This document shows positions 105-30,147 of a stretch of DNA of 36,706 nucleotides, one piece after another. The stretch's first letter is position 1; each line of letters starts with the position of its first letter. The notes beneath the pieces were generated by a model. That model was not told the DNA's origin. It was given only the letters and a program-made list of their open reading frames with translations, and searched no databases. Source of the stretch: a virus; IMG/VR virus record IMGVR_UViG_3300025674_000147, positions 1-36,706 of that record; one strand, given 5' to 3'. The position numbers were made by a program, and so were the translations under genes.

Positions 105-1181
105 ATGGCATCAAGTTATTCAACAGATCTTAAACTAGAGTTAATGGTTACCGGTGAAAAAGCTGGTTTATGGGGTGACATTACAAATACAAACTTAGTA
201 ATTGTACAACAAGCTATCGCTGGTTTTGAACAAGTTGCATTAAATGCAACAACAGGTGCAACTCTTGCATTTACAAACGCAGCAACTTCAAATGGTAAAA
301 ATGCAGTTATCGAATTAACTGGAACAATCACAGGTAATGTTGATGTTACTATTCCAGCAAGTGTAACTAATAAAGTTTACATTGTTAAAAACAGCACATC
401 AGGTGCTTTCACTGTAACGGTAAAAGTTTCTGGTCAAACAGGTGTAACTTTCTCAGCTACTGATAAAGGTGCAAAACTTGTATATGTAAATGGAACTGAT
501 GTTGCAGATTCAAACATTGGAAAAGTTTCAAATGATATTTCTCCATCACTATCTGGAATACTAGATACAAATGGTAATGACATTATTGTTGATGACGCTG
601 GTGCAATTGAAGATGATTCAAATAATCCATACATTAGATTTCAAAAAACAGCTTCAGCTGTAAACTTTTTAGATGTAACTAACCAAGCAACTGGTTCAGC
701 ACCAGATGTTGCAGCAGTTGGAACTGATACAAACATTGATTTTAATTTAACTCCAAAAGGAATTGGAAGAGTTACATTAAATGGTAATGGTAAGATTAAT
801 GGTCTTGCAGAAAAAGTAACTGTTAATGGAACATTTACTTCTAACATAAACTTTGACACAAACACTCAAGCAGTTCAATTAGATACTGCAGCAGCTTCTG
901 CAAACTTTACAGTTAACTTAAGAGGTGATGGTTCAAATTCTTTAGATGCTTCTATGGATACAGGTGAATCAGTTACCATTGCATACATTTCAAAACAAGG
1001 TGCAACAGCATATTATAATACAACAGTACAAGTAGATGGCTCAGTTGTAACTCCAGTATGGCAAGGTGGATCAGCACCTTCAGCTGGTAATACAACATCA
1101 AATGATGTGTATACATTCACAGCTATTAAAACAGCTTCGTCTACATTTACTGTATTAGCAGCTCAAACGCAGTTTGCGTAA
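105..1181 (+). CDS. Tail-fibre-like virion structural protein
   Basis: A 358-residue protein rich in Thr, Ala, Ser, Asn, Val and Gly, with alternating short polar and hydrophobic stretches typical of beta-rich phage fibres. The N-terminus (MASSYSTDLKLELMVTGEKA, followed by GLWGD and an N-rich segment) resembles a segment that recurs at the start of tail proteins in marine phages and probably anchors the protein to the tail. A central segment near residues 155-225 has NGNDIIVDDAGAI and a D-x-N-I-D-F-N-L-T-P-K-G-I-G-R stretch, common in beta-helical fibres. The start follows an AAGGA ribosome site at 91-95. No enzymatic motif is visible. It precedes the Gly-rich adhesin gene by 18 bases, so the two are probably co-expressed as part of the host-recognition apparatus. 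The family is assigned by resemblance only. Confidence 0.7.
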   Translation: MASSYSTDLKLELMVTGEKAGLWGDITNTNLVIVQQAIAGFEQVALNATTGATLAFTNAATSNGKNAVIELTGTITGNVDVTIPASVTNKVYIVKNSTSGAFTVTVKVSGQTGVTFSATDKGAKLVYVNGTDVADSNIGKVSNDISPSLSGILDTNGNDIIVDDAGAIEDDSNNPYIRFQKTASAVNFLDVTNQATGSAPDVAAVGTDTNIDFNLTPKGIGRVTLNGNGKINGLAEKVTVNGTFTSNINFDTNTQAVQLDTAAASANFTVNLRGDGSNSLDASMDTGESVTIAYISKQGATAYYNTTVQVDGSVVTPVWQGGSAPSAGNTTSNDVYTFTAIKTASSTFTVLAAQTQFA

Positions 1182-1199: not shown

Positions 1200-2057
1200 A
1201 TGCCAATTATAGGTACACTTGCAGGAGGATCAGCAGGGGGATTTGGACAAAGAAAAGGTGGAATAGCTTTTGATGTCGACTATCTTATTGTTGCAGGTGG
1301 TGGCGGTGTTAACTGGATTTTTTCTGGTGGCGCAGGCGCAGGCGGTTATAGAACTTCATATCCAGGTGGAACACAATTAACTATAAAAGACGCAGTAACA
1401 ACAGTCACTGTAGGTGGTGGCGGAGCTGCAGGTAATCCTGGAAACTCAGGAGATGGAACTCCTGGAGTAGATTCAAGTGTAGGAACTTTTGCAGCCTCTG
1501 GCGGAGGTAAAAATAGTGAACCAGGTGGATCTGGAGGTTCTGGATCTACAGGAAACGCTGGAGGATATACTCCACCAGAAGGAAACAATGGTGGTAGTCC
1601 TGTTCAAGGTGGACAAGGCGGTGGCGGAGGAGCTAACCAAGTTGGACAAGATGGAACTCCTACAGGTCCGCCGTTGCAAGGTAATGGTGGCCCAGGTGGA
1701 GCAGGATCAGCTTCTTCTATTACAGGATCATCTGTAACAAGAGCAGGAGGCGGTGGCGGAGCCGTTTATTGGCCAGGTCGTCAAGCTGGATCAGGCGGAG
1801 CAGGCGGAGGCGGAAACGGTTCTTCTAGACCCGGTTCTGCAGGTCAACCAGGACAGGCTAACACTGGAGGCGGTGGTGGCGGAGCCAATGAGCAATATCA
1901 GCTAGGTGGAGCTGGAGGAAGTGGTATAGTTGTATTAAGATACCCAACAACTCTTGCGCCTAGACTAACTGTTGCTCCTGGAACTAATACAACAGCAACC
2001 GATGGATCAGATACATATGCAACATTTACAGTATCTGGAACATTAACTTATACGTAG
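1200..2057 (+). CDS. Glycine-rich adhesin-like tail protein
   Basis: A 285-residue protein with a very high Gly content. It opens its repeat region with FDVDYLIVAGGGG and closes it with GGSGIVVLRYP, the bracket of the glycine-rich domain (Gly_rich_2 type) found in phage tail tips and fibres. Between these lie many GG, GGG and GGGG runs with Pro, Ser, Asn and Gln, including short Gly-Pro segments (GNPGNSGDGTPG, GGPGGAG, GQPGQANTGG). The last 40 residues form a Thr-rich tail. Polyglycine-sandwich adhesins are known in T4-like phages (gp38), where the Gly-rich loops set receptor specificity; the same role is inferred here. An AGGAGG site lies 11 bases before the ATG. GC content is locally high because Gly codons dominate. 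The Pro-Gly segments make it a conceivable substrate for the oxygenases encoded downstream, which is untested. Confidence 0.75.
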   Translation: MPIIGTLAGGSAGGFGQRKGGIAFDVDYLIVAGGGGVNWIFSGGAGAGGYRTSYPGGTQLTIKDAVTTVTVGGGGAAGNPGNSGDGTPGVDSSVGTFAASGGGKNSEPGGSGGSGSTGNAGGYTPPEGNNGGSPVQGGQGGGGGANQVGQDGTPTGPPLQGNGGPGGAGSASSITGSSVTRAGGGGGAVYWPGRQAGSGGAGGGGNGSSRPGSAGQPGQANTGGGGGGANEQYQLGGAGGSGIVVLRYPTTLAPRLTVAPGTNTTATDGSDTYATFTVSGTLTYT

Positions 2058-2062
2058 GATTT

Positions 2063-2509
2063 ATGGCACATTTTGCAAAATTAGATGAAAACAATATTGT
2101 AGAAAAAGTTGTAGTAATTGGAAATGATGTTCCAACAGCAGCTGGACCTTTAGGTGAAAATGATATGCACCCTGATGGTGAAAGTTATTGTCAAACTTTA
2201 TTTAAAGGTGGAGTTTGGAAACAAACGTCTTATAACAACAATTTTAGAAAACAATATGCAGGTGTGGGGTATACTTACGACTCTTTAAAAGACAAGTTTA
2301 TTACACCACAACCTTATCCTTCATGGGTTTTAGATGCTAACGATGATTGGCAGGCGCCTGTTGCGTATCCAACAGTTCAAAATGTAAACGAAAATGTTTA
2401 TTTACCTGTTAAAGAGTGGTCAGAAGATGATCAAACTTGGAAATCTACAGGAACAGATAATAATAATTATCTTTGGAATTCAGCTACTTCTAGCTGGGAT
2501 TTAGCTTAA
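2063..2509 (+). CDS. Small conserved tail-associated protein of unknown function
   Basis: A 148-residue protein beginning MAHFAKLDENNIVEKVVVIG and rich in Trp, Tyr and Asn. Proteins of this look, with the opening H-F-A-x-L-D and repeated Y/W-rich beta segments near residues 70-148, recur next to tail-fibre genes in marine cyanophages and pelagiphages; the function is unknown. It starts 5 bases after the adhesin gene, so translation is probably coupled. It is the last gene before the oxygenase cassette, and the 46-base gap after it holds a candidate promoter and hairpin. Confidence 0.65.
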   Translation: MAHFAKLDENNIVEKVVVIGNDVPTAAGPLGENDMHPDGESYCQTLFKGGVWKQTSYNNNFRKQYAGVGYTYDSLKDKFITPQPYPSWVLDANDDWQAPVAYPTVQNVNENVYLPVKEWSEDDQTWKSTGTDNNNYLWNSATSSWDLA

Positions 2510-2540: not shown

Positions 2541-2562
2541 TCATACTCATAAAGTATGATTT
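2538..2562 (+). promoter_or_regulatory. Hairpin covering the start codon of the first oxygenase gene
   Basis: AAGTCATACT at 2538-2547 pairs with AGTATGATTT at 2553-2562 (10 pairs, one of them G-U) around a 5-base loop. The ATG at 2556-2558 lies inside the right arm, and there is no Shine-Dalgarno sequence upstream. On a read-through transcript the start would be hidden; a transcript beginning near 2547 would lack most of the left arm. The regulation is inferred. Confidence 0.4.
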
Positions 2563-3227
2563 GGCCAACTGTTTGTATAGATAATTTTTTTGATAACCCA
2601 GATAAGGTTGTTGAAGTAGCTAATTCTTTTTCTTACAAAAAAGATGAAACAGGTAAATGGCCTGGAGAAAGATGCGAGCATGTTGGAAATCTTCATTATG
2701 AATTATTTCTTCATTCAACTAAAAAAATAATAGCTTCAATATTTCCAAACGAATATAAAAACTTACAATGGAATTGTTCACAATTTTTTCAAAAGATAAA
2801 ACCAAAAGATCATAAAGGACCTGGATGGGTTCATAAAGATGATGAAGCAGAATTTACTTGTATTATTTATTTATCCAAAAACCCAAACAATGGAACATCT
2901 TTATTTAGTACTAATAATTTTTTTAATTATAGAATGGATAAAAACACAGGTATTAAATGGAAATATATAAGAGAAAATAAAACATCTAGTTCAAAAATTT
3001 ATCAAGATGCATTAAAAGATAACAATTCTAATTTTACAAAAACATGTTCTTTTAATTCTATTTATAATAGAATGATTTTATTTGATTCATATCAAGCTCA
3101 TGGAGTTGATAATTTTGATAATGAAGATAATGAAGAAAGACTTACCTTAATCACCTTTTTTTATGATGTAAGTAAAAGAGATGGTTCATTGTTAAAAAAA
3201 CATGGATCAGAACAAAGGAGAATTTAA
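2556..3227 (+). CDS. 2OG/Fe(II) oxygenase-like protein (array member 1)
   Basis: A 223-residue protein resembling the DUF6445-like branch of the 2-oxoglutarate/Fe(II) dioxygenase fold. The opening IDNFFDNPDKVVEVA is typical of that branch. The predicted iron ligands are H93 and D95 (WVHKDD) and the distal H182 (YQAHGV); R195 (EERLTLITFF) is placed to bind the 2-oxoglutarate carboxylate. All key residues are present, so it is likely active. The substrate is unknown; members of this fold hydroxylate amino acids, peptides, nucleic acids or small molecules. It is the first gene of a ten-gene run with almost no spacing, and its stop overlaps the next start by one base (TAATG). It lacks a ribosome site and its ATG sits in a hairpin, unlike the later genes of the cassette. 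Confidence 0.75.
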   Translation: MIWPTVCIDNFFDNPDKVVEVANSFSYKKDETGKWPGERCEHVGNLHYELFLHSTKKIIASIFPNEYKNLQWNCSQFFQKIKPKDHKGPGWVHKDDEAEFTCIIYLSKNPNNGTSLFSTNNFFNYRMDKNTGIKWKYIRENKTSSSKIYQDALKDNNSNFTKTCSFNSIYNRMILFDSYQAHGVDNFDNEDNEERLTLITFFYDVSKRDGSLLKKHGSEQRRI

Positions 3228-3865
3228 TGGTTTTAAAAGAACATTTTTGGTTTTTTGAATCTGCTTTACCAAGTAAGTTTTGTGATGAAATTGTAGCATT
3301 AGCTAAAAAAAGAAAATTAGATTTAGGTAATATTGGAAAATATACTGATTTAAAAAGAAAATTAACTAAAGAAGAAATTAAAGATTTAAAAAAGAAAAGA
3401 AATTCAAACATAGTATTTATGAATGATAAATTTATTTATGATGAAATTTGTCCATTTATAAGAATAGCTAATTCTTCTGCTCAATGGAATTTTGAGTGGG
3501 ACTGGTGTGAATCTGCACAATTTACTGAATATAAAAAAAATCAACATTATGGGTGGCATTGTGATACTTTTCATGAACCCAATAATTCTGATAACATAAA
3601 TTTAAAAGGTAAAATAAGAAAGTTATCATGTATTATAAGTTTATCAGATAGTACTAATTATAAAGGAGGTTTATTAGAATTTGACCCAAGGAATTATGAT
3701 CCTGAAACTGAAAAACCTCTTAGTAAAATTTTAAAATGCAAACCTTTACAAAAGAAAGGATCTATAGTTGTATTTCCATCTCATGTCTGGCACAGAGTTA
3801 AACCAGTAACACAAGGTATTCGACATTCTTTAGTTATCTGGTGTATAGGGTATCCTTTTAAATAA
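3227..3865 (+). CDS. 2OG/Fe(II) oxygenase, PKHD-like (array member 2)
   Basis: A 212-residue protein with a clear double-stranded beta-helix oxygenase pattern. H111 and D113 (GWHCDTF) form the HxD pair, the distal histidine is H189 (FPSHVWHRVKPVT), and R199 follows in G-I-R-H-S-L-V-I-W for 2-oxoglutarate. The C-terminal motif FPS-x5-H-R-V-x-P-V-T-x-G-x-R is characteristic of the PKHD/PiuC-type prolyl-4-hydroxylase superfamily branch. A GG-x-L-x-F segment near residues 147-152 is also typical. It overlaps the preceding gene by one base and abuts the next with no gap. Of the array this is the most canonical member, so catalytic competence is likely; the substrate cannot be told from sequence. 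Confidence 0.85.
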   Translation: MVLKEHFWFFESALPSKFCDEIVALAKKRKLDLGNIGKYTDLKRKLTKEEIKDLKKKRNSNIVFMNDKFIYDEICPFIRIANSSAQWNFEWDWCESAQFTEYKKNQHYGWHCDTFHEPNNSDNINLKGKIRKLSCIISLSDSTNYKGGLLEFDPRNYDPETEKPLSKILKCKPLQKKGSIVVFPSHVWHRVKPVTQGIRHSLVIWCIGYPFK

Positions 3866-4330
3866 ATGTACTTTGAAGAAGAAAATTTTCTATCTAAAGA
3901 GGAATGTAAAAAAATAATAAATGTTTACAAAGATAATATAAATAAAACATATATACATGGTTCTAAAATTACAGGAACTAAACCATTAAAAATAAGTGAT
4001 ATAAACTATTCTAATTTTAAAAAAATATTAAACGCCATTGAAAATAAATATATAAAAAAGTTTTTTAATAAATGCATACTTTCAAATTATGAAATAGTAT
4101 TTTGGCCTAAAGGTTCTTATATGGATCCTCATTATGATGAAGGAGATGAATGTGGTTTTTTTATTTATTTAAATGATAATTATAAAGGAGGAGAAACAGA
4201 GTTAATAGGTATCAAAAAAATTAAACCAGAAACAGGAAAGTTGCTCTTGTTTAAAAATGGAAATATGTTACATAAGGTCAATAAAGTTAAAATAAACGAC
4301 AGATATACATTAGGAGGTTGGTACATATGA
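3866..4330 (+). CDS. 2OG/Fe(II) oxygenase, prolyl-4-hydroxylase-like (array member 3)
   Basis: A compact 154-residue protein that is little more than the oxygenase core. H89 and D91 (DPHYDEGD), distal H136 (NMLHKVNKV) and R146 (NDRYTLGGWY) form the full iron and co-substrate set. The strand turn YKGGETEL near residues 106-113 is the prolyl-4-hydroxylase-like signature seen in the P4H and EGLN families. The start codon immediately follows the previous stop, and its last bases form an ATGA overlap with the next gene. Its small size suggests a free-standing catalytic domain that acts on a small or exposed substrate. The family is clear; the substrate is not. Confidence 0.82.
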   Translation: MYFEEENFLSKEECKKIINVYKDNINKTYIHGSKITGTKPLKISDINYSNFKKILNAIENKYIKKFFNKCILSNYEIVFWPKGSYMDPHYDEGDECGFFIYLNDNYKGGETELIGIKKIKPETGKLLLFKNGNMLHKVNKVKINDRYTLGGWYI

Positions 4331-4962
4331 ATCATATGCAAAACATATTTGGAGTTCCATTATTTATAAAAAAATTTGATTGTGATGGACAAGACGTAAA
4401 AATAAGAAAACAAATAAAAAGTATAAATAAAAAATTATATACTTTAGTTAAGAAATTAGAAAAAAAAGAAAAAAACTTAAAAACACGGTTTAGTAATTTA
4501 GGTGGTTTTCATTCTAAACCTTTAATAAAAAATAAATTAGCAGAAGAATTTGTAAAATTTATACAGCCTACCGTATATGATAATTTAAAATTATTTCATT
4601 TTAAAAATGACGTACAAGTTTCTTTTGAAGAACCATGGTTTACTGTAAATAAAAAAGGTCATGAAAATCATATGCACACTCATAGTGGAACTGATTTTAG
4701 TATTGTTTTTTATGTTAAGGCACCAGTAAATTGTGGAGATATAACTTTTTATCAAAATCCATATATAAATCATGGCTGTGGTTATTTTAATTTTGAAATA
4801 GAAGCACTTCATGCATTAAATTCTATGAGTTGGAAAGTAACTCCAGAAGAGTCAATGATGGTTATGTTCCCAAGTTATTTACAACATTCTGTAAAAGAAA
4901 ATTTATCGGATAAGGAGAGAATTAGTTTTGCTTTAAATATAAGACTTAAAGAAATAAAATGA
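4327..4962 (+). CDS. 2OG/Fe(II) oxygenase-like, 2OG-FeII_Oxy_5 type (array member 4)
   Basis: The ATG at 4327 is preferred over an upstream TTG in the same frame, because an AGGAGG lies at 4312-4317 and the ATG overlaps the previous stop as ATGA. The 211-residue product matches the 2OG-FeII_Oxy_5 (PF13759, TIGR02466-like) style: an N-terminal helix-rich part, a family histidine motif at NHMHTHSGTDFSIVFYV (H115, H117, H119), then distal H187 (FPSYLQHSV) and R198 (ERISFALNIR). The usual HxD is replaced by histidines, as is normal in this family. It resembles array member 6 (5797-6378), with the same FPS-x-L-x-H and D/E-R-I-S endings, so these two are probably related by duplication or common recruitment. 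Confidence 0.8.
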   Translation: MNHMQNIFGVPLFIKKFDCDGQDVKIRKQIKSINKKLYTLVKKLEKKEKNLKTRFSNLGGFHSKPLIKNKLAEEFVKFIQPTVYDNLKLFHFKNDVQVSFEEPWFTVNKKGHENHMHTHSGTDFSIVFYVKAPVNCGDITFYQNPYINHGCGYFNFEIEALHALNSMSWKVTPEESMMVMFPSYLQHSVKENLSDKERISFALNIRLKEIK

Positions 4963-5573
4963 GTTTTAAAGAAAATGGATACAGTGTAATTAAAAAAGCT
5001 TTAGATAAAAGTTTAATAGATTATCTAACTAAATATATAAGTTTAAAAAAAGATATATTTACTTTTCTAACTAATACAAAATCTGTATCTCCTTTAAATA
5101 AAGATTATGGAAGTTGGGGTGATTTACAAGTCCCAGATGAAAGAATATATAATCTTTATGGAGACCCTGGTTTAGACACTCTTTTATTAATTGTTAAAGA
5201 AAAAATGGAAAAAGAAGTGGGGTGTTCTTTAATAGAAAACTACAGTTATTGTAGAATATACGTGAAAGGAAATGTTTTAGAAAAACATATAGACAGGGAA
5301 CATTGTGAAATTTCTACTACTTTAAATATTGCAGGAGATTTTTGGCCTATTTTTATTAAAAATAAAAAAAATAAAAACATAAAAGTTGATTTATCACCTG
5401 GTGATATGTTGGTTTACAGAGGATGTGAATTGGAACACTGGAGAGAATCTTTTAAGGGGGATAAATGCATTCAAGTTTTTTTACATTTTAATAAAAAAAA
5501 TAAAAATAATATAAAAAACAAATATGACACTAGACCTACTTTGGGTTTAGGTTTGTACCATAAAGGAGGATAA
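4959..5573 (+). CDS. 2OG/Fe(II) oxygenase-like protein (array member 5)
   Basis: A 204-residue protein. H110 and D112 (EKHIDREHCEIS) and distal H160 (CELEHWRESF) give the iron triad. The motif D/E-H-W-R-E-x-F-x-G-x-x-C-x-Q-V-F-L-H-F is common in marine bacteria and phages. The arginine that normally binds 2-oxoglutarate, about ten residues after the distal His, is not obvious; K169 or R162 would have to serve. It overlaps the previous gene by four bases (ATGA) and is followed after two bases by the coiled-coil gene. The composition is extremely A/T-rich, with Lys and Asn runs at the C-terminus. Oxygenase fold is likely; activity is slightly less certain than for its neighbours. Confidence 0.75.
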   Translation: MSFKENGYSVIKKALDKSLIDYLTKYISLKKDIFTFLTNTKSVSPLNKDYGSWGDLQVPDERIYNLYGDPGLDTLLLIVKEKMEKEVGCSLIENYSYCRIYVKGNVLEKHIDREHCEISTTLNIAGDFWPIFIKNKKNKNIKVDLSPGDMLVYRGCELEHWRESFKGDKCIQVFLHFNKKNKNNIKNKYDTRPTLGLGLYHKGG

Positions 5574-5575
5574 AA

Positions 5576-5803
5576 ATGGAACATAGATTAAAACAATTAG
5601 AACAAGAAAATTTAGATTTAAAAAGTAGACTTAACATGGAAACAGAAGTTAAAAAATCTGAAGTAATGTTAAACAAAGAATTGAAGGAAAGAATAGAAAC
5701 ATTAGAACTTCAATTAGAAACCGTTTTAAAAATAAATGAAGAATTTTGTAATAAAGTAGCAAAATTAAGAAGGATTAATAAAGAGCTTATAGACAAATGT
5801 TAG
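5576..5803 (+). CDS. Small coiled-coil protein within the oxygenase array
   Basis: A 75-residue protein that is almost wholly charged heptad-like helix (for example LKQLEQENLDLKSRL near residues 5-19 and ELKERIETLELQLETVLK near 35-52). No signal peptide, membrane segment or cysteine cluster is visible; the only Cys residues lie at the C-terminal end. An AAAGGAGGA site precedes the ATG, one of the best ribosome sites of the cassette, so it may be made in quantity. It overlaps the next oxygenase gene by seven bases. It may be a scaffold or adaptor that brings the array enzymes or their substrate together; this is inferred from position only. Confidence 0.7.
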   Translation: MEHRLKQLEQENLDLKSRLNMETEVKKSEVMLNKELKERIETLELQLETVLKINEEFCNKVAKLRRINKELIDKC

Positions 5804-6378
5804 AAACTGTTGTTTATGAAATATTACCAAACCCTGTTGGAAAAACCTCTTTAAATGTAGATTTAAAAAAATTAACTAAACTATGTTATCAAGAAAAGAA
5901 AAAAGGAGGTAGGAATTTTAGTAACAGGGGCGGTTGGCAAAGTTTGAATATGAAAATAGACAATCAAATATTAAAAGAACTTTGTAGTCAAATATTAACC
6001 GTGGCAAATGAGTTTAAAAAACTATATCTATTAAATAAAAAATTAGAGATATGTAATTTATGGATAAACATTAATAATTATAAAGATTATAATGTAACAC
6101 ATACTCATCCTAGATCTTTATTTTCTGGTGTTTTTTATGTTGTATGCCCACTAAATTCTGGATCAATAGTTTTTGAAAGAGATGCAGAAATTGGTTGTTA
6201 TATAGAACAAAGAGAACAATGCTCAGAGTTTAACAAATATAATTCTACTGATTGGAAATTTGATAATGTTGCAGGTCAATTATTAATTTTTCCATCCTGG
6301 TTAAAGCATAGAGTTGAAGCAAATATGTCTAAGAAAGATAGAATATCAATTTCATTTAATATTATACCATATGAATAG
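5797..6378 (+). CDS. 2OG/Fe(II) oxygenase-like, 2OG-FeII_Oxy_5 type (array member 6)
   Basis: A 193-residue protein of the 2OG-FeII_Oxy_5 (PF13759) type. A W-x-N-x-x-x-x-x-D segment leads to the family motif VTHTHPRSLFSGVFYV (H102, H104, residues 100-115). Distal H171 (FPSWLKHRVEANMS) and R182 (DRISISFNI) complete the site. This is the clearest member of that family in the window, including the H-x-H-P and S-G-V-F-Y-V pattern. Proteins of this family are widespread in marine phages and cyanobacteria but have no established substrate. It overlaps the coiled-coil gene by seven bases and the methyltransferase gene by eight. Confidence 0.85.
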   Translation: MLETVVYEILPNPVGKTSLNVDLKKLTKLCYQEKKKGGRNFSNRGGWQSLNMKIDNQILKELCSQILTVANEFKKLYLLNKKLEICNLWININNYKDYNVTHTHPRSLFSGVFYVVCPLNSGSIVFERDAEIGCYIEQREQCSEFNKYNSTDWKFDNVAGQLLIFPSWLKHRVEANMSKKDRISISFNIIPYE

Positions 6379-7084
6379 TAATTTTAAAAATGTATTTGAG
6401 TATATTGAAAAAGAAGGTGAAATGTATGACACATACTCAACAGCTTTATTTATGTATTCGTTATTAAAAATGAAAAAACCTAAAAACTTCATAGAGTTTG
6501 GAACGGGTTTAGGCTGTACTTCTTTTATGGCAGCTCAAGCGTTTAAAGAAAATGGTTTTGGTAAAGTATATACATTTGATAATGGAGAACACTGGAAAGG
6601 GTATGGAAGAGAAGGAACTTACAAATCTTTTATAGAAAATAAAATTAAAGAATTAAATATAAGTAAACAAATTAAATTTGAGTTTGGAGATATTTATATG
6701 AACAAACTTAAACTAAAAAAATTAGATTTTGTATTTTTTGATTTTTATAAAGAGCCTTTAGCTTTATTAGATATGTTTGCTTATATTTTTCCTAAAGTAA
6801 ACAAATACTGTAATGTCTTTGTTGATAGTGCTCCTTGTTTTTGGCCTGCATATAGTATGTTAAGCATGTTAATAGATACTTTACAAAAAGGGAAAATACC
6901 TGAAACTATGTATCAGCTGTGTCCAGAAAAAGATAAACTAAAACATTTAGTATCTACCAGTAAATTTACTTTATTAAATATAAGAAAAAGAGACAACAGT
7001 GCCCATCAAAATGGAATTGCTTGGATAAAAATAGAACCACAAGATGTTCTTGTAAGAAGTTTGAAAAATGAAGATCATACCTAA
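6371..7084 (+). CDS. Class I SAM-dependent methyltransferase-like protein in the oxygenase array
   Basis: The ATG at 6371 is chosen because it overlaps the previous stop by eight bases and gives a start suited to the fold; an earlier in-frame ATG at 6314 would overlap the oxygenase gene by 65 bases. The product has 237 residues. Motif I is FIEFGTGLGCTS (residues 40-51), an acidic strand end is at D70 (YTFDNGEH), and later strands are FEFGDIY and LDFVFFDFYKEP. It is close in style to the Methyltransf_24 group, which often modifies small molecules or sugars, and no DNA-methyltransferase motif (DPPY, NPPY, PC) is visible. It is flanked on both sides by oxygenase genes in one unit, so it likely acts in the same pathway. 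Confidence 0.72.
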   Translation: MNSNFKNVFEYIEKEGEMYDTYSTALFMYSLLKMKKPKNFIEFGTGLGCTSFMAAQAFKENGFGKVYTFDNGEHWKGYGREGTYKSFIENKIKELNISKQIKFEFGDIYMNKLKLKKLDFVFFDFYKEPLALLDMFAYIFPKVNKYCNVFVDSAPCFWPAYSMLSMLIDTLQKGKIPETMYQLCPEKDKLKHLVSTSKFTLLNIRKRDNSAHQNGIAWIKIEPQDVLVRSLKNEDHT

Positions 7085-7565
7085 CTTTTTAGATCAACAA
7101 AATTTTTTAGAACTTAAAGAAAATATGTTAGGATCTTATTTCCCTTGGTTTCTTGCAGAAGGAGTAGTTAAAACAGGAGACAATCAATTTCAATTTATAC
7201 ATAATTTCTATAAAGAAAATCAAATTACAAGCCCTTTTTATAATTTGCTTTTACCTATTTTAGATAAAATTAAACTAAGAGCGTTAATTAGAATTAAAGC
7301 TAATCTTATATATAAAACAAATAAAATAATTGAACATGGCTTTCATACAGATGTTAATCCCATTAAAAAAAATACTAAACAAAAAACAGCTATTCTTTAT
7401 ATGAACACTAACAATGGTTACACTAAATTTAAAAAATCAAAAGTTAATAGTGAAGAAAATAAAATGGTAATATTTAACTCTAGAGAAGAGCATACGGGAA
7501 GCTCTTGCACTGATCAAGAATTTAGAGTGGTAATTAATTTTAATTATTATGACACAGACTCTTAA
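7068..7565 (+). CDS. 2OG/Fe(II) oxygenase-like protein (array member 7)
   Basis: A 165-residue protein with the 2OG oxygenase residue set: H93 and D95 (HGFHTDVNP), distal H142 (REEHTGSSC) and R153 (QEFRVVINFNY), eleven residues later. The strand ILYMNTNNGYTKF near residues 109-121 matches the core strand after the HxD pair. The closest look is that of small phage oxygenases seen in T4-like cyanophages. It overlaps the methyltransferase by 17 bases and the next oxygenase by 17 bases. Confidence 0.75.
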   Translation: MKIIPNFLDQQNFLELKENMLGSYFPWFLAEGVVKTGDNQFQFIHNFYKENQITSPFYNLLLPILDKIKLRALIRIKANLIYKTNKIIEHGFHTDVNPIKKNTKQKTAILYMNTNNGYTKFKKSKVNSEENKMVIFNSREEHTGSSCTDQEFRVVINFNYYDTDS

Positions 7566-8079
7566 AAGAAAATTAATATTAGATGAGGTAGAAGTTTTTG
7601 ATTCTTTAAATCAAATGACCTTTACTGAATATAAAGGTGTGGTAAATGGTCAATCATCATATTCAAACCATCTAATTATAAATGATAATAAAATACTCAA
7701 TTTAATTGTAAATGAATTTATTGATATGGCTGGTAAAGATTACAAACTATTAGAAGTATGGGCAAATAAATATGGTAAGGGTGGTTATGTACAAGAGCAC
7801 AGTCATGTTCCTACAATAGAAGAGTTAAAAAATGTAGATTGTAAGGCCGGTGTTTATTTCTTTAAAAAACCTAAAAGGTCAGGTGATTTTGTTTTAGATG
7901 GTGAGAAACAAAATGTTGAGGAAGGTGATATACTATTATTTAACTGTGATAAAAAACATTATTCATTGCCAAATGAAACAAATGAAGATAGGATCATATT
8001 CTCTATTAATCTTGCCAAAGGCGTAGAAAAAATATGGAATAATGATAAATGGGAGTTTAAGAAAATACTACCAAAATAA
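7549..8079 (+). CDS. 2OG/Fe(II) oxygenase-like protein (array member 8)
   Basis: A 176-residue protein. The stretch EVWANKYGKGGYVQEHSHVP (residues 69-88) carries H84 and H86, in the H-x-H arrangement of the 2OG-FeII_Oxy_5-like branch; distal H137 (DKKHYSLPN) and R148 (EDRIIFSINL) follow. AGVYFFKKP after the histidines parallels S-G-V-F-Y-V in member 6. It is the last gene of the cassette and is followed by a 25-base gap before a virion gene; no hairpin terminator is visible there, so transcription may continue rightward. Confidence 0.75.
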   Translation: MTQTLKRKLILDEVEVFDSLNQMTFTEYKGVVNGQSSYSNHLIINDNKILNLIVNEFIDMAGKDYKLLEVWANKYGKGGYVQEHSHVPTIEELKNVDCKAGVYFFKKPKRSGDFVLDGEKQNVEEGDILLFNCDKKHYSLPNETNEDRIIFSINLAKGVEKIWNNDKWEFKKILPK

Positions 8080-8104: not shown

Positions 8105-10042
8105 ATGCTTCAGAAAATACAATTTAAGCCAGGATTTAACAAACAAGCTACAGAGACCGGAGCAGAAGGTCAATGGGTAGATGGGGATAATGTACGTTTT
8201 AGATATGGTCAGCCTGAAAAAATAGGCGGTTGGCAGCAACTAGTAGATAACACTATATCAGGACCTGTTAGAGATCAGCATACATGGACAGATTTAGATG
8301 GTAAAAAATACGCAGCTCTAGGTACATCTAAAGTATTAGTTATTTATTATGAAGGTGGGTTTTATGATATTACACCTATTAATGCAGATCAGGCAGGAGC
8401 AACCTTTGATTCAACAACAGGTTCAGCGACAGTTACTGTTAACTTAACATCTCATGGTTTATTAGTTGGAGATTATTTTAAATTTAAATCTGTATCATTA
8501 CCTGGTGGTGGTGAAACAGGATACACAACAAATGATTTTGAAACAAATGTGTTTGAAGTTATTGCAACACCTACCGGAAACACTTTTACCATTACTATGC
8601 CATCTAATGAAACTGGCACAGGAATGTCGGCTCAAGGATCTGCAACATTAAATTCATACATTACTATTGGTCCAGTTTTTCAAACACCAGCTTATGGTTG
8701 GGGTACAGATAGTTGGGGATCAGGTGAATGGGGAGAAGAATCTTCTGTAACAAACGTTACACTCGATCCTGGTTCCTGGAGCCTCGATAATTATGGACAG
8801 TTACTTGTTGCAACAGTTAAGAATGGTGCAACATATACATGGAATCCAGGAGCAGCTGGAGCTTTAGAAACTAGAGCTGCTGTTGTAAGTGGTGCACCAA
8901 CTGCATCTTTAATGAGTCTTGTATCAGATAGAGATAGACATTTATTTTTAATGGGTACTGAAGAAACTATAGGTTCACCTTCAACTCAAAATAAAATGTT
9001 TATTAGATTTTCTAATCAAGAAGATATTAACACTTGGACACCTACTGCAACCAATACTGCAGGTACATTTCTCTTGGACCAAGGAAATGAAATCATTGGA
9101 GCCGTACAAGGTAAAGATTATATTTTAGTGCTCACGGATCAAGCAGCTTATGCTATTCAGTTTGTGGGCCCACCTTTCACATTTAGTATTAGACAAGTAG
9201 GTTCTAACTGTGGATGTTTAGGTCAACATGCAATGGTGTATGCACAAGGCGCAGTCTTTTGGATGGGATTTGGTGGTGGATTCTTTATGTATGATGGTAC
9301 GGTAAAACAACTGCCGTCACTAGTTGAAGATTTTGTATTTACTACTCAAGGAGATAATTTAGGAATTAATTATGATGCCAATCAAATTGCATATGGTTAT
9401 CATAACTCATTGTATAATGAAGTAGGCTGGTACTATGCAGCATCAGGTTCACAACAAATAAATAGAAATGTAGTTTATAATTTTTTAGAACAAACCTGGA
9501 CAACAGGATCCTTATCTAGAACATCATATAATGATGCTCACACTTATGGATTACCTTATGCAACAGAGTTTACAACATCTAGTACACCTACGTTTCCAGT
9601 TATTAATGGTGCAACCAATACATTTGGAGCAAGTAAATATTGGGCCCATGAAACAGGAGTTAATGAAGTAGATGCAAATGGTGTTGAAACAGCAATTACT
9701 TCTTACATACAATCTGGAGATTATGATATATCCATGCAACAAGGCTTAGCTGGTGATGGTGAAAATATTATGAGAGTATCACGATTTATACCTGACTTTA
9801 AAAACTTATCGGGTAATGCAAAAATAACTATGTTCTTTAAAAATTACCCTAATCAGGCGGATACATCTAGTGCTGTAGCACCCTTGATTACTGGACCATT
9901 TACGTGTAATAGTACTACAACTTTTGTAAGTACAAGAGTTAGAGGAAGACAAGTAAGTTTAAAAATAGAAAATGATGCAGTAGATGAGTCTTGGAGATAT
10001 GGAACTTTGCGATTAGATATTCTTGCTGGAGGTAGAAGGTAA
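8105..10042 (+). CDS. Virion structural protein, probable tail/connector component
   Basis: A 645-residue protein opening MLQKIQFKPGFNKQATETGA, then a WVDGDNVRFRYGQPEKIGGW stretch, a signature I recognise from conserved large virion proteins of marine podophages. The body is rich in Gly, Thr, Trp and Tyr with repeated beta-strand segments (for example YITIGPVFQTPAYGWGTDSW, residues about 182-201), compatible with a beta-propeller-like or beta-sandwich fold. It ends in a WRYGTLRLDILAGGRR segment also seen in this family. There are no enzymatic motifs. A GAGG precedes the ATG by four bases. Its stop overlaps the next small gene by one base. A tail-hub or head-closure role is inferred from phage context. 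Confidence 0.7.
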   Translation: MLQKIQFKPGFNKQATETGAEGQWVDGDNVRFRYGQPEKIGGWQQLVDNTISGPVRDQHTWTDLDGKKYAALGTSKVLVIYYEGGFYDITPINADQAGATFDSTTGSATVTVNLTSHGLLVGDYFKFKSVSLPGGGETGYTTNDFETNVFEVIATPTGNTFTITMPSNETGTGMSAQGSATLNSYITIGPVFQTPAYGWGTDSWGSGEWGEESSVTNVTLDPGSWSLDNYGQLLVATVKNGATYTWNPGAAGALETRAAVVSGAPTASLMSLVSDRDRHLFLMGTEETIGSPSTQNKMFIRFSNQEDINTWTPTATNTAGTFLLDQGNEIIGAVQGKDYILVLTDQAAYAIQFVGPPFTFSIRQVGSNCGCLGQHAMVYAQGAVFWMGFGGGFFMYDGTVKQLPSLVEDFVFTTQGDNLGINYDANQIAYGYHNSLYNEVGWYYAASGSQQINRNVVYNFLEQTWTTGSLSRTSYNDAHTYGLPYATEFTTSSTPTFPVINGATNTFGASKYWAHETGVNEVDANGVETAITSYIQSGDYDISMQQGLAGDGENIMRVSRFIPDFKNLSGNAKITMFFKNYPNQADTSSAVAPLITGPFTCNSTTTFVSTRVRGRQVSLKIENDAVDESWRYGTLRLDILAGGRR

Positions 10043-10740: not shown

Positions 10741-11676
10741 ATGGAATCACCTAGAGGTGGTACTGAATTACAGTTAGAGTATTTAAATAAGTATGTAGAT
10801 AAAAGCATACTGGATCAAGTACAAATAACAACATCAGTACCAGAAAAAATACCATTACATCCAACTAAGTTAAATATACTTTGGCAAAAAAATTCATATG
10901 ATCAAGGTAATTTAGCACCATGGTTTAAAGATAAATCTAATCATAAAAAATATGATTGGTATGTATTTAATTCACATTGGAATTATGAGAAGTTTAGATA
11001 TAATTTTGATATACCTACAGAAAGATCTTTGGTAATTAAAAATGCAGTTGATAGTATTAAACCAAGAGATATTGATAAAAAGAAAGATAAAATAAAACTA
11101 ATCTTTCATCCAACACCATGGAGAGGATTAAATGTAATGTTAGCTACAATGCAGTTACTAAACAATCCTAATATTGAACTTGATGTATATTCATCAACAG
11201 AAGTATATGGAAAAGCTTTTAAAGAAGCTAACGATAAACAATGGCAAGAATTATATCAACAAGCAAAAGATTTAAAAAATGTAAATTACATTGGATATAA
11301 ACCTAATGAATATATAAAAGAACATTTACGTGAGTATGATATATTTGCGTATCCAAATATATGGGAAGAAACATTTTGTATATCAGCAGTAGAAGCGATG
11401 GCTGCAGGTCTTTATCTTATTACCACAAATAATGGAGCTTTGTATGAAACATGTGCAGAGTTTTCTACTTATATTCCATATCAAAAAAACTATATGAATT
11501 TAGCTAGCAACTTTGCTTATGCAATAGATGCTTCAGCAAAAAAACTTTATAGTGATGGAGTTAAGCAACACTTAAAAATGCAAGTGGAATATACTAATCA
11601 ATACTACAATTGGACAAGACAAGGAAACGCTTGGACTAATTTTTTAAAAGGAGCACTAAATGCAAGATCCAAGTAA
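10741..11676 (+). CDS. GT-B fold glycosyltransferase, GT4-like
   Basis: A 311-residue protein. The C-terminal half carries the GT4 donor-binding signature: YIGYKPNEYIKEHLREYDIF leads to PNIWEETFCISAVEAMAAG (about residues 205-223), the E-x-F-x7-E motif region of retaining glycosyltransferases. FHPTPWRGLNVML near 122-134 corresponds to the start of the donor domain, with R128 in place of the usual lysine region. The N-terminus begins almost at the GGTELQLEYL loop, so the usual first beta strand is absent; the stop of the preceding gene lies in the same frame three bases upstream, which rules out a longer product. The likely role is adding sugar to a virion protein, DNA or host glycan. It overlaps the second transferase by 17 bases. 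Confidence 0.82.
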   Translation: MESPRGGTELQLEYLNKYVDKSILDQVQITTSVPEKIPLHPTKLNILWQKNSYDQGNLAPWFKDKSNHKKYDWYVFNSHWNYEKFRYNFDIPTERSLVIKNAVDSIKPRDIDKKKDKIKLIFHPTPWRGLNVMLATMQLLNNPNIELDVYSSTEVYGKAFKEANDKQWQELYQQAKDLKNVNYIGYKPNEYIKEHLREYDIFAYPNIWEETFCISAVEAMAAGLYLITTNNGALYETCAEFSTYIPYQKNYMNLASNFAYAIDASAKKLYSDGVKQHLKMQVEYTNQYYNWTRQGNAWTNFLKGALNARSK

Positions 11677-12481
11677 ACCAATATGGGTAAAACCAAAAGT
11701 AGAATCTAATAGCACATTACCATGTATATATTTAGCAACACCTGTACATAGTGAATGTTCTATTCATTACACACAAGCTCTATTATCTTTTCAACAAGCT
11801 TGTCTTAGTAAAGGTATACTAGTTAGTTTTGCATTATTAAAATCATCATTAGTTACTCAAGGTAGAAACTTATGTGTATCTAACTTCATGGAATTAAGTG
11901 ACACCTATAGTCATTTTTTATTTATTGATTCTGATATAGAATTTAGTCCAGATACAATCTTTAAAATGATTGAAGCAGACAAAGAAGTTATTGCTGCACC
12001 ATATCCATTAAAACATTTAGATTGGGATAAAATAAGTCATAGAATAAAAGGTAAAGAATTAGATTCTGAAACGTTATCCATGATGGGTTTTACTTGGCCA
12101 ATTAAACTAGAACACACTAAAGAAATATCTGTAACCAAAGGTATTATGGAAGTTTCTCATGCACCAACTGGATGTATGTTAATTAAAAAACAAGTATTTG
12201 AGAAGATGATTAAAGCGTATCCAAACTTAAAGATAGAACAACCAACCATTGTCAATGGTGAGGAATCTACTAAACCATATTATTATAACTTTTTTGACAC
12301 ATTTCATGAACCTGAAACTAAAAGGTATTATGGTGAGGATTTTGGATTCTGTAAAAGATGGACTGAAATAGGTGGTAAATGTTATTTATATGTACCCGAT
12401 AATCTTACACATATTGGTGAATATAGATACACTGGAAACCTGTTAAAGGACATGCAACAGAATCTTAAAAAGATTGACTAA
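11660..12481 (+). CDS. GT-A fold glycosyltransferase-like protein
   Basis: A 273-residue protein starting with a good AAGGAG site. After a proline-rich lead, IYLATPVHSECSIHYTQALL (residues 23-42) starts the nucleotide-binding fold, and HFLFIDSDIEFSPDTIFKMI (85-104) carries the DxD-type metal site (D90-S-D92). APYPLKH, SHAPTGCMLIKK and a late YYGEDFGFCKRW segment (E-D acidic pair) match family 2 or Anp1-like transferases. It is probably an inverting glycosyltransferase working with the preceding GT-B enzyme. Its stop codon is within a perfect 15-base palindrome. Confidence 0.75.
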   Translation: MQDPSKPIWVKPKVESNSTLPCIYLATPVHSECSIHYTQALLSFQQACLSKGILVSFALLKSSLVTQGRNLCVSNFMELSDTYSHFLFIDSDIEFSPDTIFKMIEADKEVIAAPYPLKHLDWDKISHRIKGKELDSETLSMMGFTWPIKLEHTKEISVTKGIMEVSHAPTGCMLIKKQVFEKMIKAYPNLKIEQPTIVNGEESTKPYYYNFFDTFHEPETKRYYGEDFGFCKRWTEIGGKCYLYVPDNLTHIGEYRYTGNLLKDMQQNLKKID

Positions 12482-29340: not shown

Positions 29341-29476
29341 AAAATACGACGGTAGATCAAGACCAACTAATGATGTTTATAAACAACGTTGGGAAGAAAT
29401 TTTTGGTAAAAAGAAACAAGAAGAATTAGATAAAGAGGATCAAGAATATTTAGATTCATTAAAGGATAAAATATAG
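29321..29476 (+). CDS. Small basic/charged conserved protein
   Basis: A 51-residue protein, MAKEKGRKYDGRSRPTNDVY... to ...DSLKDKI. The basic start and R-W-x-E-I-F-G segment recur beside DUF3310 genes in related marine phages; function unknown. It starts within the DUF3310 gene and its stop shares one base with the GTG of the next gene (TAGTG). Confidence 0.6.
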   Translation: MAKEKGRKYDGRSRPTNDVYKQRWEEIFGKKKQEELDKEDQEYLDSLKDKI

Positions 29477-30147
29477 TGGCTACTCATACAAATTACTTTG
29501 ATTATTATCCAAAAGATATTCCAACTTGTGATGAAAGTCACGGTGAAAATGAACTAAAAATTATATCGGAGCTTAATGAAATAGTCAATGGACCTGTAGA
29601 AGGTAACTATTGTTTTATACATCAAACTGTTATTAATAAAGATTCTGTTCCAATAAAAGAAAGATCATGGAAAAGAGAATATTTAAGAAAAGCAATTAAG
29701 AATTCAAAGATTGCTTTAGAAATAGGCTTTAATGCTGGTCATAGTTCTGCTATAATGCTTGCCACAAATCCTAATTTAAAATTAGTTACCATCGATATCT
29801 GTACCAATCCATATGTAGAAAAATGTGCACAACATTTAAGTAATATTTATAAAGATAGATTTTATTTTTATAAAGGTAGTAGCCAACAGATATTAAAGAA
29901 TAAAAAATCTAGTGTTGATTTTGATTTCATTCATGTAGATGGTGGACATGGTATTGCAGATTTTTATTTTGATATTGATTGGTCAGAAAAAAATTTAAAA
30001 CCTGGAGGAAGATTATTAATTGATGATGCTTATCTACCAGACTATCTAAAGTATCTTGCATACAAAGAACAACAAGAAATATTTAAACAAATAAATCCAG
30101 AAGGTATGCCTTCTTCAGGAGAAAATATATTAGTGGAGAAGATATGA
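29476..30147 (+). CDS. Class I SAM-dependent methyltransferase (Methyltransf_24-like)
   Basis: A 223-residue protein read from a GTG that overlaps the preceding stop by one base. Motif I is ALEIGFNAGHSSAIML (about residues 79-94), the acidic strand end is VTIDICTNPY (D106 region), and FDFIHVDGGHGIADFYFDID followed by LKPGGRLLIDDAY gives the typical post-motif strands. The D-G-x-H pattern is the mark of Methyltransf_24/cephalosporin-hydroxylase-like enzymes that act on small molecules or sugars. It lies between replication genes and overlaps the polymerase gene by four bases (ATGA). The substrate is unknown. Confidence 0.78.
   Translation: MATHTNYFDYYPKDIPTCDESHGENELKIISELNEIVNGPVEGNYCFIHQTVINKDSVPIKERSWKREYLRKAIKNSKIALEIGFNAGHSSAIMLATNPNLKLVTIDICTNPYVEKCAQHLSNIYKDRFYFYKGSSQQILKNKKSSVDFDFIHVDGGHGIADFYFDIDWSEKNLKPGGRLLIDDAYLPDYLKYLAYKEQQEIFKQINPEGMPSSGENILVEKI

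Follow-up and report, generated by a model that had tools for sequence, protein, structure and literature searches.

Why should a marine phage carry eight genes of the 2-oxoglutarate (2OG)/Fe(II) oxygenase type in a single operon, and on what might their products act? We considered this question for a stretch of 36,706 nucleotides, IMG/VR virus record IMGVR_UViG_3300025674_000147 (hereafter the window, meaning that whole stretch), the 36.7-kb viral record from which alone the phage is known. Ten open reading frames (ORFs), numbered P1 to P10 in plus-strand order, form a cassette at positions 2556 to 8079. We propose, with a probability of about 0.52, that this cassette is a modular tail-adhesin tailoring island in which, as we infer for both substrate and chemistry, the enzymes hydroxylate and sometimes further decorate receptor-binding adhesins. 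The cassette and its flanks are as follows.

105–1181, plus strand: 'fib', a tail-fibre-like protein (phrog_31104/5906), the conserved upstream flank; relatives have 52 homologous ORFs at this site
1200–2057, plus strand: glycine-rich adhesin-like protein (PF21722 Gly_rich_2, Pfam E 4.9e-14; 32% Gly) that co-occurs with P2 and P5; the proposed substrate
2063–2509, plus strand: 'f148', a small tail-associated protein of 148 amino acids (phrog_7759) that travels with the glycine-rich adhesin
2556–3227, plus strand: P1, DUF6445-type 2OG oxygenase (E 1e-11; AlphaFold2 (AF2) model), H93-D95-H182-R195; phrog_1644
3227–3865, plus strand: P2, PKHD-like 2OG oxygenase (PF13640, E 2.2e-16; phrog_61/T4-GC412), H111-D113-H189-R199; constant partner of P5
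3866–4330, plus strand: P3, P4H-like 2OG oxygenase (PF13640, E 5.9e-11; phrog_2297)
4318–4962, plus strand: P4, 2OG-FeII_Oxy_5 type (PF13759, E 6.9e-18; phrog_81), HxH...H...R; ATG start at 4327 possible
4959–5573, plus strand: P5, 'ferrochelatase' family phrog_2954/T4-GC615, predicted 2OG-oxygenase fold, H110-D112-H160, Gln172
5576–5803, plus strand: P6, coiled-coil protein of 75 amino acids, with homologues among relatives
5797–6378, plus strand: P7, 2OG-FeII_Oxy_5 type (PF13759, E 1.7e-22; phrog_81; PDB relatives 3bvc/2rg4), HxH...H...R
6371–7084, plus strand: P8, class I O-methyltransferase-like, Methyltransf_24 (PF13578, E 7.6e-6, above cut-off); alternative TTG start at 6314
7068–7565, plus strand: P9, 'DNA endonuclease V' family phrog_274/T4-GC100, 2OG-type with conserved triad (PF13640 in relatives), H93-D95-H142-R153
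7549–8079, plus strand: P10, Oxy_5-like 2OG oxygenase (PF13759, E 1e-5), HxH...H...R
8105–10042, plus strand: phage 'stabilization'/virion structural protein (phrog_3287, E 8e-82), the conserved downstream flank; a homologue is called 'stabilization protein' in phage DSL-LC04

Are the eight genes indeed 2OG oxygenases? The earlier note, made from the sequence alone, had described eight such genes with a coiled-coil gene and a methyltransferase gene in one operon, and the ORFs, Pfam, PHROGs, the iron sets and the models of P1 and P5 bear this out. The spacing of the ORFs ranges, as it had said, from a 2-base gap (P5–P6) to 17-base overlaps (P8–P9 and P9–P10), which for P4 and P8 holds only with ATG starts, the mechanical TTG starts lying further upstream; the previous reading of the genes as a single translational unit is supported. 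P2, P3, P4 and P7 scored above the Pfam cut-off for 2OG families and P9 and P10 fell short of it by less than 1 bit; P1 matched DUF6445, P5 matched nothing in Pfam, and all eight fall into PHROGs phage families that we traced to the 2OG fold. Profile–profile comparison (hhalign) linked P2 with P3 (97%), P4 with P7 (100%), P7 with P10 (98%), P9 with P10 (95%) and P1 with P9 (73%). Because it gave no link between P5 and the other seven, the fold of P5 was predicted, and AF2 predictions were made for P1 and P5, the weakest two by sequence. The PDB matches of the P5 model (predicted local distance difference test, pLDDT, 94.9) were led by Pseudomonas P4H, PHD2 and SnoN (Z 15–17) and covered about 160–175 residues at 9–14% identity, every one of the matches listed being a 2OG oxygenase; for the P1 model (pLDDT 80.2), 50 of the 50 matches listed were 2OG oxygenases. 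Structure prediction, a check that had been suggested with the original description, thus returned a 2OG fold for both, and the double-stranded beta-helix is indicated for all eight, by models and PDB comparison for P1 and P5, by Pfam for P2, P3, P4 and P7 and by profile links for P9 and P10.

The predicted metal ligands are HxD...H in P1, P2, P3, P5 and P9 and HxH...H in P4, P7 and P10, and an Arg follows in seven of the eight, in agreement with the earlier reading; in P5 this position is taken by an invariant Gln, and the 2OG site of the protein may therefore be different. At the aligned Arg column, 19 of 42 members of the P4 group have Phe. Among distinct relatives (scored at at least 60 bits) the ligands are intact in 251 of 257, several of the exceptions being gaps or ambiguous letters, and the triad is conserved in 63 of 64 relatives of P2 and in all 36 of P9. 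HxD is conserved among the relatives of P1, P2, P3, P5 and P9, and HxH...H is kept nearly always among those of P4, P7 and P10, whose family is Pfam Oxy_5 and which, as a whole group, have HxH...H, a possible three-His iron site, instead of HxD...H. Since the ligands are kept, we rejected the idea that these are dead enzymes. Tandem duplication was likewise rejected: the sole detectable pair within the window is P4/P7, alignable at 32% identity, which agrees with the previous claim of mixed subfamilies. Taken together, sequence and models give strong support for the predicted 2OG fold and metal site of the eight proteins.

What, then, connects these enzymes with the tail? The link to the adjoining adhesin genes, the strongest clue at this locus, had been missed by the earlier note. 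We compared the window with relatives comprising 80 IMG/VR loci centred on the 8105 gene (L numbers denote individual loci) and with isolates. In the 52 complete loci, where presence was set at at least 200 bits each for P2 and P5, the presence or absence of the two genes was identical in all 52; on a tree of the 8105 protein, which has moderate support and some long end branches, they changed together in nine of nine independent contrasts (p 0.004), and their similarity matrices were correlated after correction for core distance (partial rho 0.64, p 0.001). In addition, 24 ORFs are natural fusions of a P5-type to a P2/P3-type domain, with P5 first in the listed cases and the same layout in phrog_3531 by matched positions, and these fusions support joint action of P2 and P5. 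The glycine-rich adhesin goes with this pair: P5 was present in 29 of the 35 complete loci with a glycine-rich ORF and in none of the 17 without one, P5 and the adhesin changed together in about seven contrasts on the same tree, with none opposite (median p 0.016), and P2 and adhesin sequences were correlated after the same correction for core distance (partial rho 0.33, p 0.004). In independently fetched cyanophage-type P5 loci (n = 80), P2 was found in 72, the glycine-rich profile in 50 and f148 in 59; the corresponding counts were 43, 20 and 11 in 80 Mosig-type P5 loci, and zero for each in control loci centred on PolA.

The association persists from podophages through SAR11 myophages to cyanomyophages. 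HTVC008M has the oxygenase operon directly beside the adhesin pair and on the opposite strand; shared transcription is therefore not the sole tie between them. Furthermore, the oxygenase set matches the adhesin type: the glycine-rich protein and f148 accompany P2 and P5, and loci without the glycine-rich protein mostly have a Tail Collar protein with other 2OG sets. Among 50 cassettes, 32 had the glycine-rich type only, 11 the Collar type only, seven neither and none both. No f148 motif separating cassettes with P2/P5 from those without was evident by eye.

How common is such an island? The 8105 protein is 61% identical to its counterpart in HTVC023P and 56% identical to that in HTVC027P, both Pelagibacter phages with identical flanking gene order, and on this basis the window belongs to an HTVC023P-type pelagiphage. 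In the maps of both phages this site likewise holds 2OG genes. A megablast search of phage records with the window as query gave no match. By counts from iterated profiles (at least 25 bits, not all checked by hand), relatives carry 0–10 2OG ORFs at this site (10 in L035, nine in L008), so that the neighbourhood check in the marine virus catalogue (IMG/VR) proposed earlier does find adjacent oxygenases recurring here. Same-strand neighbouring pairs are at most 20 bases apart in 204 of 240 cases. Upstream of the 8105 homologue there are 322 2OG ORFs in 536 kb, versus one in 292 kb downstream, and the density is about 0.5 per kb around P5 relatives versus 0.006 per kb at PolA-centred control loci; such clustering goes beyond chance. 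Two other contigs, L003 and L070, have the exact 2OG set and order of the window, and an assembly chimera or artefact was rejected on this ground.

In the cultured cyanophage S-SM1, whose GenBank record dates from about 2010, a glycine-rich protein and a homologue of f148 are directly followed by an unbroken run of nine 2OG-type genes within 6.3 kb, annotated as 2OG oxygenase (three), ferrochelatase (two), hypothetical (two), leprecan (one) and denV (one), and shorter versions of the island occur in HTVC008M, Mosig, HTVC033P and S-SSM5. Eight genes are therefore a high but not an exceptional number, and the opinion that they are far beyond anything known was not supported, the co-location of eight having also been published in 2022 (PMC9599517). 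Further long 2OG runs, each on a single contig, were seen in L427 (10), L421 (nine) and L210 (10); two of these contigs are binned as bacterial genomes and are phage-like in content. Whole oxygenase sets are swapped at the same site between relatives, and turnover is fast even between near-identical neighbours (L004 and the window), which fits the previous suggestion of a 'bank of interchangeable specificities'. A conserved gene of about 105 amino acids ('ELWDVEGILHNQKFKFDLRPLKNN...') was seen in 29 loci of relatives (e.g., L028:2113-2427 and L018:5071-5382), often with the P5 region on one side and the stabilization gene on the other; it was not found in the window cassette.

Other tailoring enzymes accompany the oxygenases in 17 of 50 cassettes, and none was found in the remaining 33. 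They include carbamoyltransferases (six), tryptophan halogenases (four), O-methyltransferases (two, one being P8 of the window) and sulfotransferases (four, all four with an adenosine-phosphosulfate (APS)-kinase-like gene alongside), with single or double cases of an epimerase, a glycosyltransferase-like enzyme, a radical SAM enzyme and a methyltransferase. For most of them the acceptor is a hydroxyl group, and 2OG enzymes could provide such groups. Tryptophan-halogenase genes (PF04820) were seen in or near tail islands at L036:5688-7220 and L004:4350-5471 and in L017, L044 and HTVC008M (L089). Four tail islands without a glycine-rich or Collar adhesin (L023, L024, L026 and L063) carry a sulfotransferase and an APS-kinase-like gene, three of them with a cytidylyltransferase-like gene as well. 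Downstream of the cassette, the window has a glycosyltransferase gene, whose product is a possible further decorator, and a gene with weak glycosyltransferase likeness.

10741–11676, plus strand: glycosyltransferase group 1 (PF00534, E 1.8e-16), similarly placed in HTVC023P and HTVC027P
11660–12481, plus strand: weakly Anp1-like (glycosyltransferase-like) protein (PF03452, E 0.0044, below cut-off; phrog_1574)

A second Methyltransf_24 gene lies far from the cassette, at 29476–30147, directly before the DNA polymerase gene.

A genome scan gave 26 P5 relatives, about half of them in phage-looking contigs from marine metagenomes or single cells, many with the glycine-rich protein, f148, P2 and P5. 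Among chromosomal relatives, those of Methylobacter adjoin an HPr-kinase-like gene together with three Tail Collar genes (and in L431 a sulfotransferase gene as well), those of Methylomonas and Mucilaginibacter (L437) adjoin HPr-kinase-like, sulfotransferase and Asn-synthase genes, with PqqD in addition in Methylomonas, and several other cellular relatives have a P2/P3-like 2OG gene directly after P5. Such chromosomal loci (L431, L433, L437, L438 and L440) are possibly clusters for the maturation of peptides or adhesins. PqqD-type domains recognise peptide substrates in known pathways for ribosomally synthesized and post-translationally modified peptides (RiPPs). Because chromosomal P5 relatives adjoin PqqD and peptide-maturation-like genes, a peptide or protein substrate is favoured.

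The predicted fold and metal site, the operon, its place among the tail genes, the pairing of P2 with P5 and the association with the adhesin are features of the locus; the chemistry would then proceed as follows. The enzymes would be made together with the late virion proteins, and P2 and P5, acting as one unit, would add hydroxyl groups to side chains of the receptor-binding adhesin encoded alongside, or of its assembly partner. The variable oxygenases would add further sites, and the hydroxyls so formed may be acted on by the methyl-, carbamoyl-, sulfo- and glycosyltransferases of the cassettes. All this would probably serve adhesin folding, stability or receptor specificity, varied by cassette swapping. 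Several observations weigh against this proposal. The likeness of P5 to protein prolyl hydroxylases in the predicted fold leaves the substrate unfixed, and the small-molecule enzyme SnoN matches P5 equally well. The variable members are weakly correlated with adhesin sequence (partial rho 0.14, p 0.06), as is P5 (p 0.09). Of the Mosig-type P5 loci, most have neither the glycine-rich adhesin nor f148 within the stretch examined, and L004, L017 and L086 are tail loci with the glycine-rich adhesin and f148 that have other 2OG genes and no P2/P5. The linkage of adhesin and oxygenases could also partly reflect joint recombination of neighbours.

Several names in the databases suggest quite different activities. 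PHROGs gives phrog_2954 (P5) as 'ferrochelatase', phrog_274 (P9) as 'DNA endonuclease V', phrog_2297 (P3) as 'DNA endonuclease' and phrog_1644 (P1) as 'minor coat protein'. The ferrochelatase models of Pfam matched none of 36 P5 relatives at E<=1 and, given also the PDB matches described above, we rejected P5 as a ferrochelatase; the confident model and the intact HxD...H indicate that phrog_2954 is a 2OG oxygenase family, with catalysis predicted. A comparison of the P9 profile with the PDB gave no solved endonuclease V at E<=10, and the P9 family none to the Pfam pyrimidine-dimer family at E<=1; 10 of 15 P9 relatives matched PF13640 and HxD...H...R is conserved, so T4 endonuclease V was rejected as well, and motif and profile identify phrog_274 as another predicted 2OG oxygenase family. 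The name 'ferrochelatase' is used by GenBank for the cyanophage P5 relatives (T4-GC615), which the 2010 gene listing gives as hypothetical, with a ferrochelatase domain (PMC3037559), and two later studies build on it (PMC9599517; PMC11561400). We found no earlier correction of this name in the open-access literature, which is no proof that none exists.

Could the enzymes serve another purpose? They might alter the host surface (lipid A, O-chain or another glycan) during infection, in concert with the carbamoyl-, sulfo-, methyl- and glycosyltransferases, and block superinfection or the re-adsorption of progeny to debris. Carbamoyltransferase, sulfotransferase, O-methyltransferase, epimerase and glycosyltransferase-like genes, all present among the cassettes, are common in surface-glycan loci, and a change of this kind has been proposed for glycosyltransferases in the host-recognition clusters of SAR11 myophages (PMC7029224). 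Because linkage to the adhesin is likewise predicted, we regard this as a serious rival; it is nevertheless unlikely, given the peptide-maturation setting of the chromosomal P5 relatives, with their PqqD, HPr-kinase-like and Asn-synthase genes, and the 33 of 50 cassettes in which no transferase was found. Rather less can be said for auxiliary metabolism, in which small metabolites would be the substrates, or 2OG would be drawn down to modulate nitrogen signalling or to feed succinate to respiration, with the 'ferrochelatase' acting in haem or iron supply. This is how published work reads such genes (PMC9599517; PMC11561400; and passages of PMC3037559), and we consider it quite unlikely, since the supposed ferrochelatase has a predicted 2OG-oxygenase fold and matches no ferrochelatase model, and since nothing would require metabolic genes to be placed in tail loci (322 versus 1), to match the adhesin type or to form runs of many divergent members.

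The same location speaks against modification or repair of DNA, RNA or nucleosides by TET/JBP-like or AlkB-like hydroxylases: the genes lie with tail genes and not with replication genes, and the PolA loci of related phages are nearly empty of 2OG ORFs. Apart from the PHROGs names, what speaks for such a role is that the P5 profile very weakly matches a Naegleria Tet-like dioxygenase (E 0.12), and, with P9 bearing a 2OG triad and matching no solved endonuclease, we hold it to be highly improbable. Metabolic and DNA roles thus fit the genomic location poorly. Finally, the enzymes may have no common function, a recombination hot spot among tail genes having collected unrelated 2OG enzymes by chance. 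The fast turnover noted above, and the low GC content of the cassette (25.5% vs 32.9% in the rest of the window), which suits a foreign origin, would agree with this, but intact metal ligands in nearly all members, the strict P2/P5 pairing with its fusions and the retention of the module across phage families make it improbable.

Should the 'ferrochelatase' be a hydroxylase and the whole set act for the tail adhesin, ecological readings of these genes would shift from host metabolism to host recognition. The long-open question of what marine phage 2OG oxygenases do becomes testable by virion mass spectrometry on cultured phages. We speculate further, and more tentatively than for the tailoring island itself, that marine phages may diversify their receptor-binding adhesins chemically and not by sequence alone, through exchangeable operons in which up to about ten divergent 2OG hydroxylases are grouped round a P2–P5 pair with sulfo-, carbamoyl-, methyl- or halogenating enzymes, giving combinatorial modifications like those of natural-product tailoring.

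Searches of the open-access literature for hydroxylated phage tail proteins gave nothing directly relevant. Viral hydroxylases are known elsewhere. Mimivirus L230 is a collagen lysyl hydroxylase/glucosyltransferase. The prolyl 4-hydroxylase of PBCV-1 is a viral hydroxylase acting on viral proteins (Eriksson 1999, as cited in PMC9301287). In both, as we propose for the window, a virus encodes a hydroxylase for its own proteins, with glycosylation following; unlike these systems, with one enzyme and a collagen-like substrate, the window has many divergent enzymes in one operon and a putative substrate. Bacterial lasso-like/RiPP maturation clusters (Asn synthase, PqqD, HPr-kinase-like, sulfotransferase) share a P5 homologue and a second 2OG oxygenase with the island, whereas the island lacks PqqD and Asn synthase and its proposed substrate is a structural adhesin. 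In T4-like cyanophages, homologous 2OG genes (T4-GC 104/240/412/611), the 'ferrochelatase' T4-GC615 and the 'denV' T4-GC100 were reported by Sullivan et al. in 2010 (PMC3037559), and S-SM1 has its run of nine beside the glycine-rich protein and f148; in the relevant passages of that paper the genes are read as serving nitrogen metabolism or DNA repair, and the run is not described as one operon. Also among the nearest precedents is the study of Wittmers et al. in 2022 (PMC9599517), who found, in the same HTVC023P-type pelagiphages, eight non-orthologous 2OG genes co-located and paired with the 'ferrochelatase'. In contrast to their 'partner-AMGs', given as 'not adjacent', metabolic and linked to haem or iron, the genes here are mostly adjacent (204 of 240 pairs) and linked to the tail adhesin, and the 'ferrochelatase' is itself a predicted 2OG oxygenase. 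Phage 2OG genes, their co-location in this phage group and viral hydroxylases acting on viral proteins are thus precedented; the contiguous, adhesin-matched tailoring island and the P2–P5 unit appear to be new, as does the transfer of 'ferrochelatase' and 'DNA endonuclease V' to the 2OG oxygenases.

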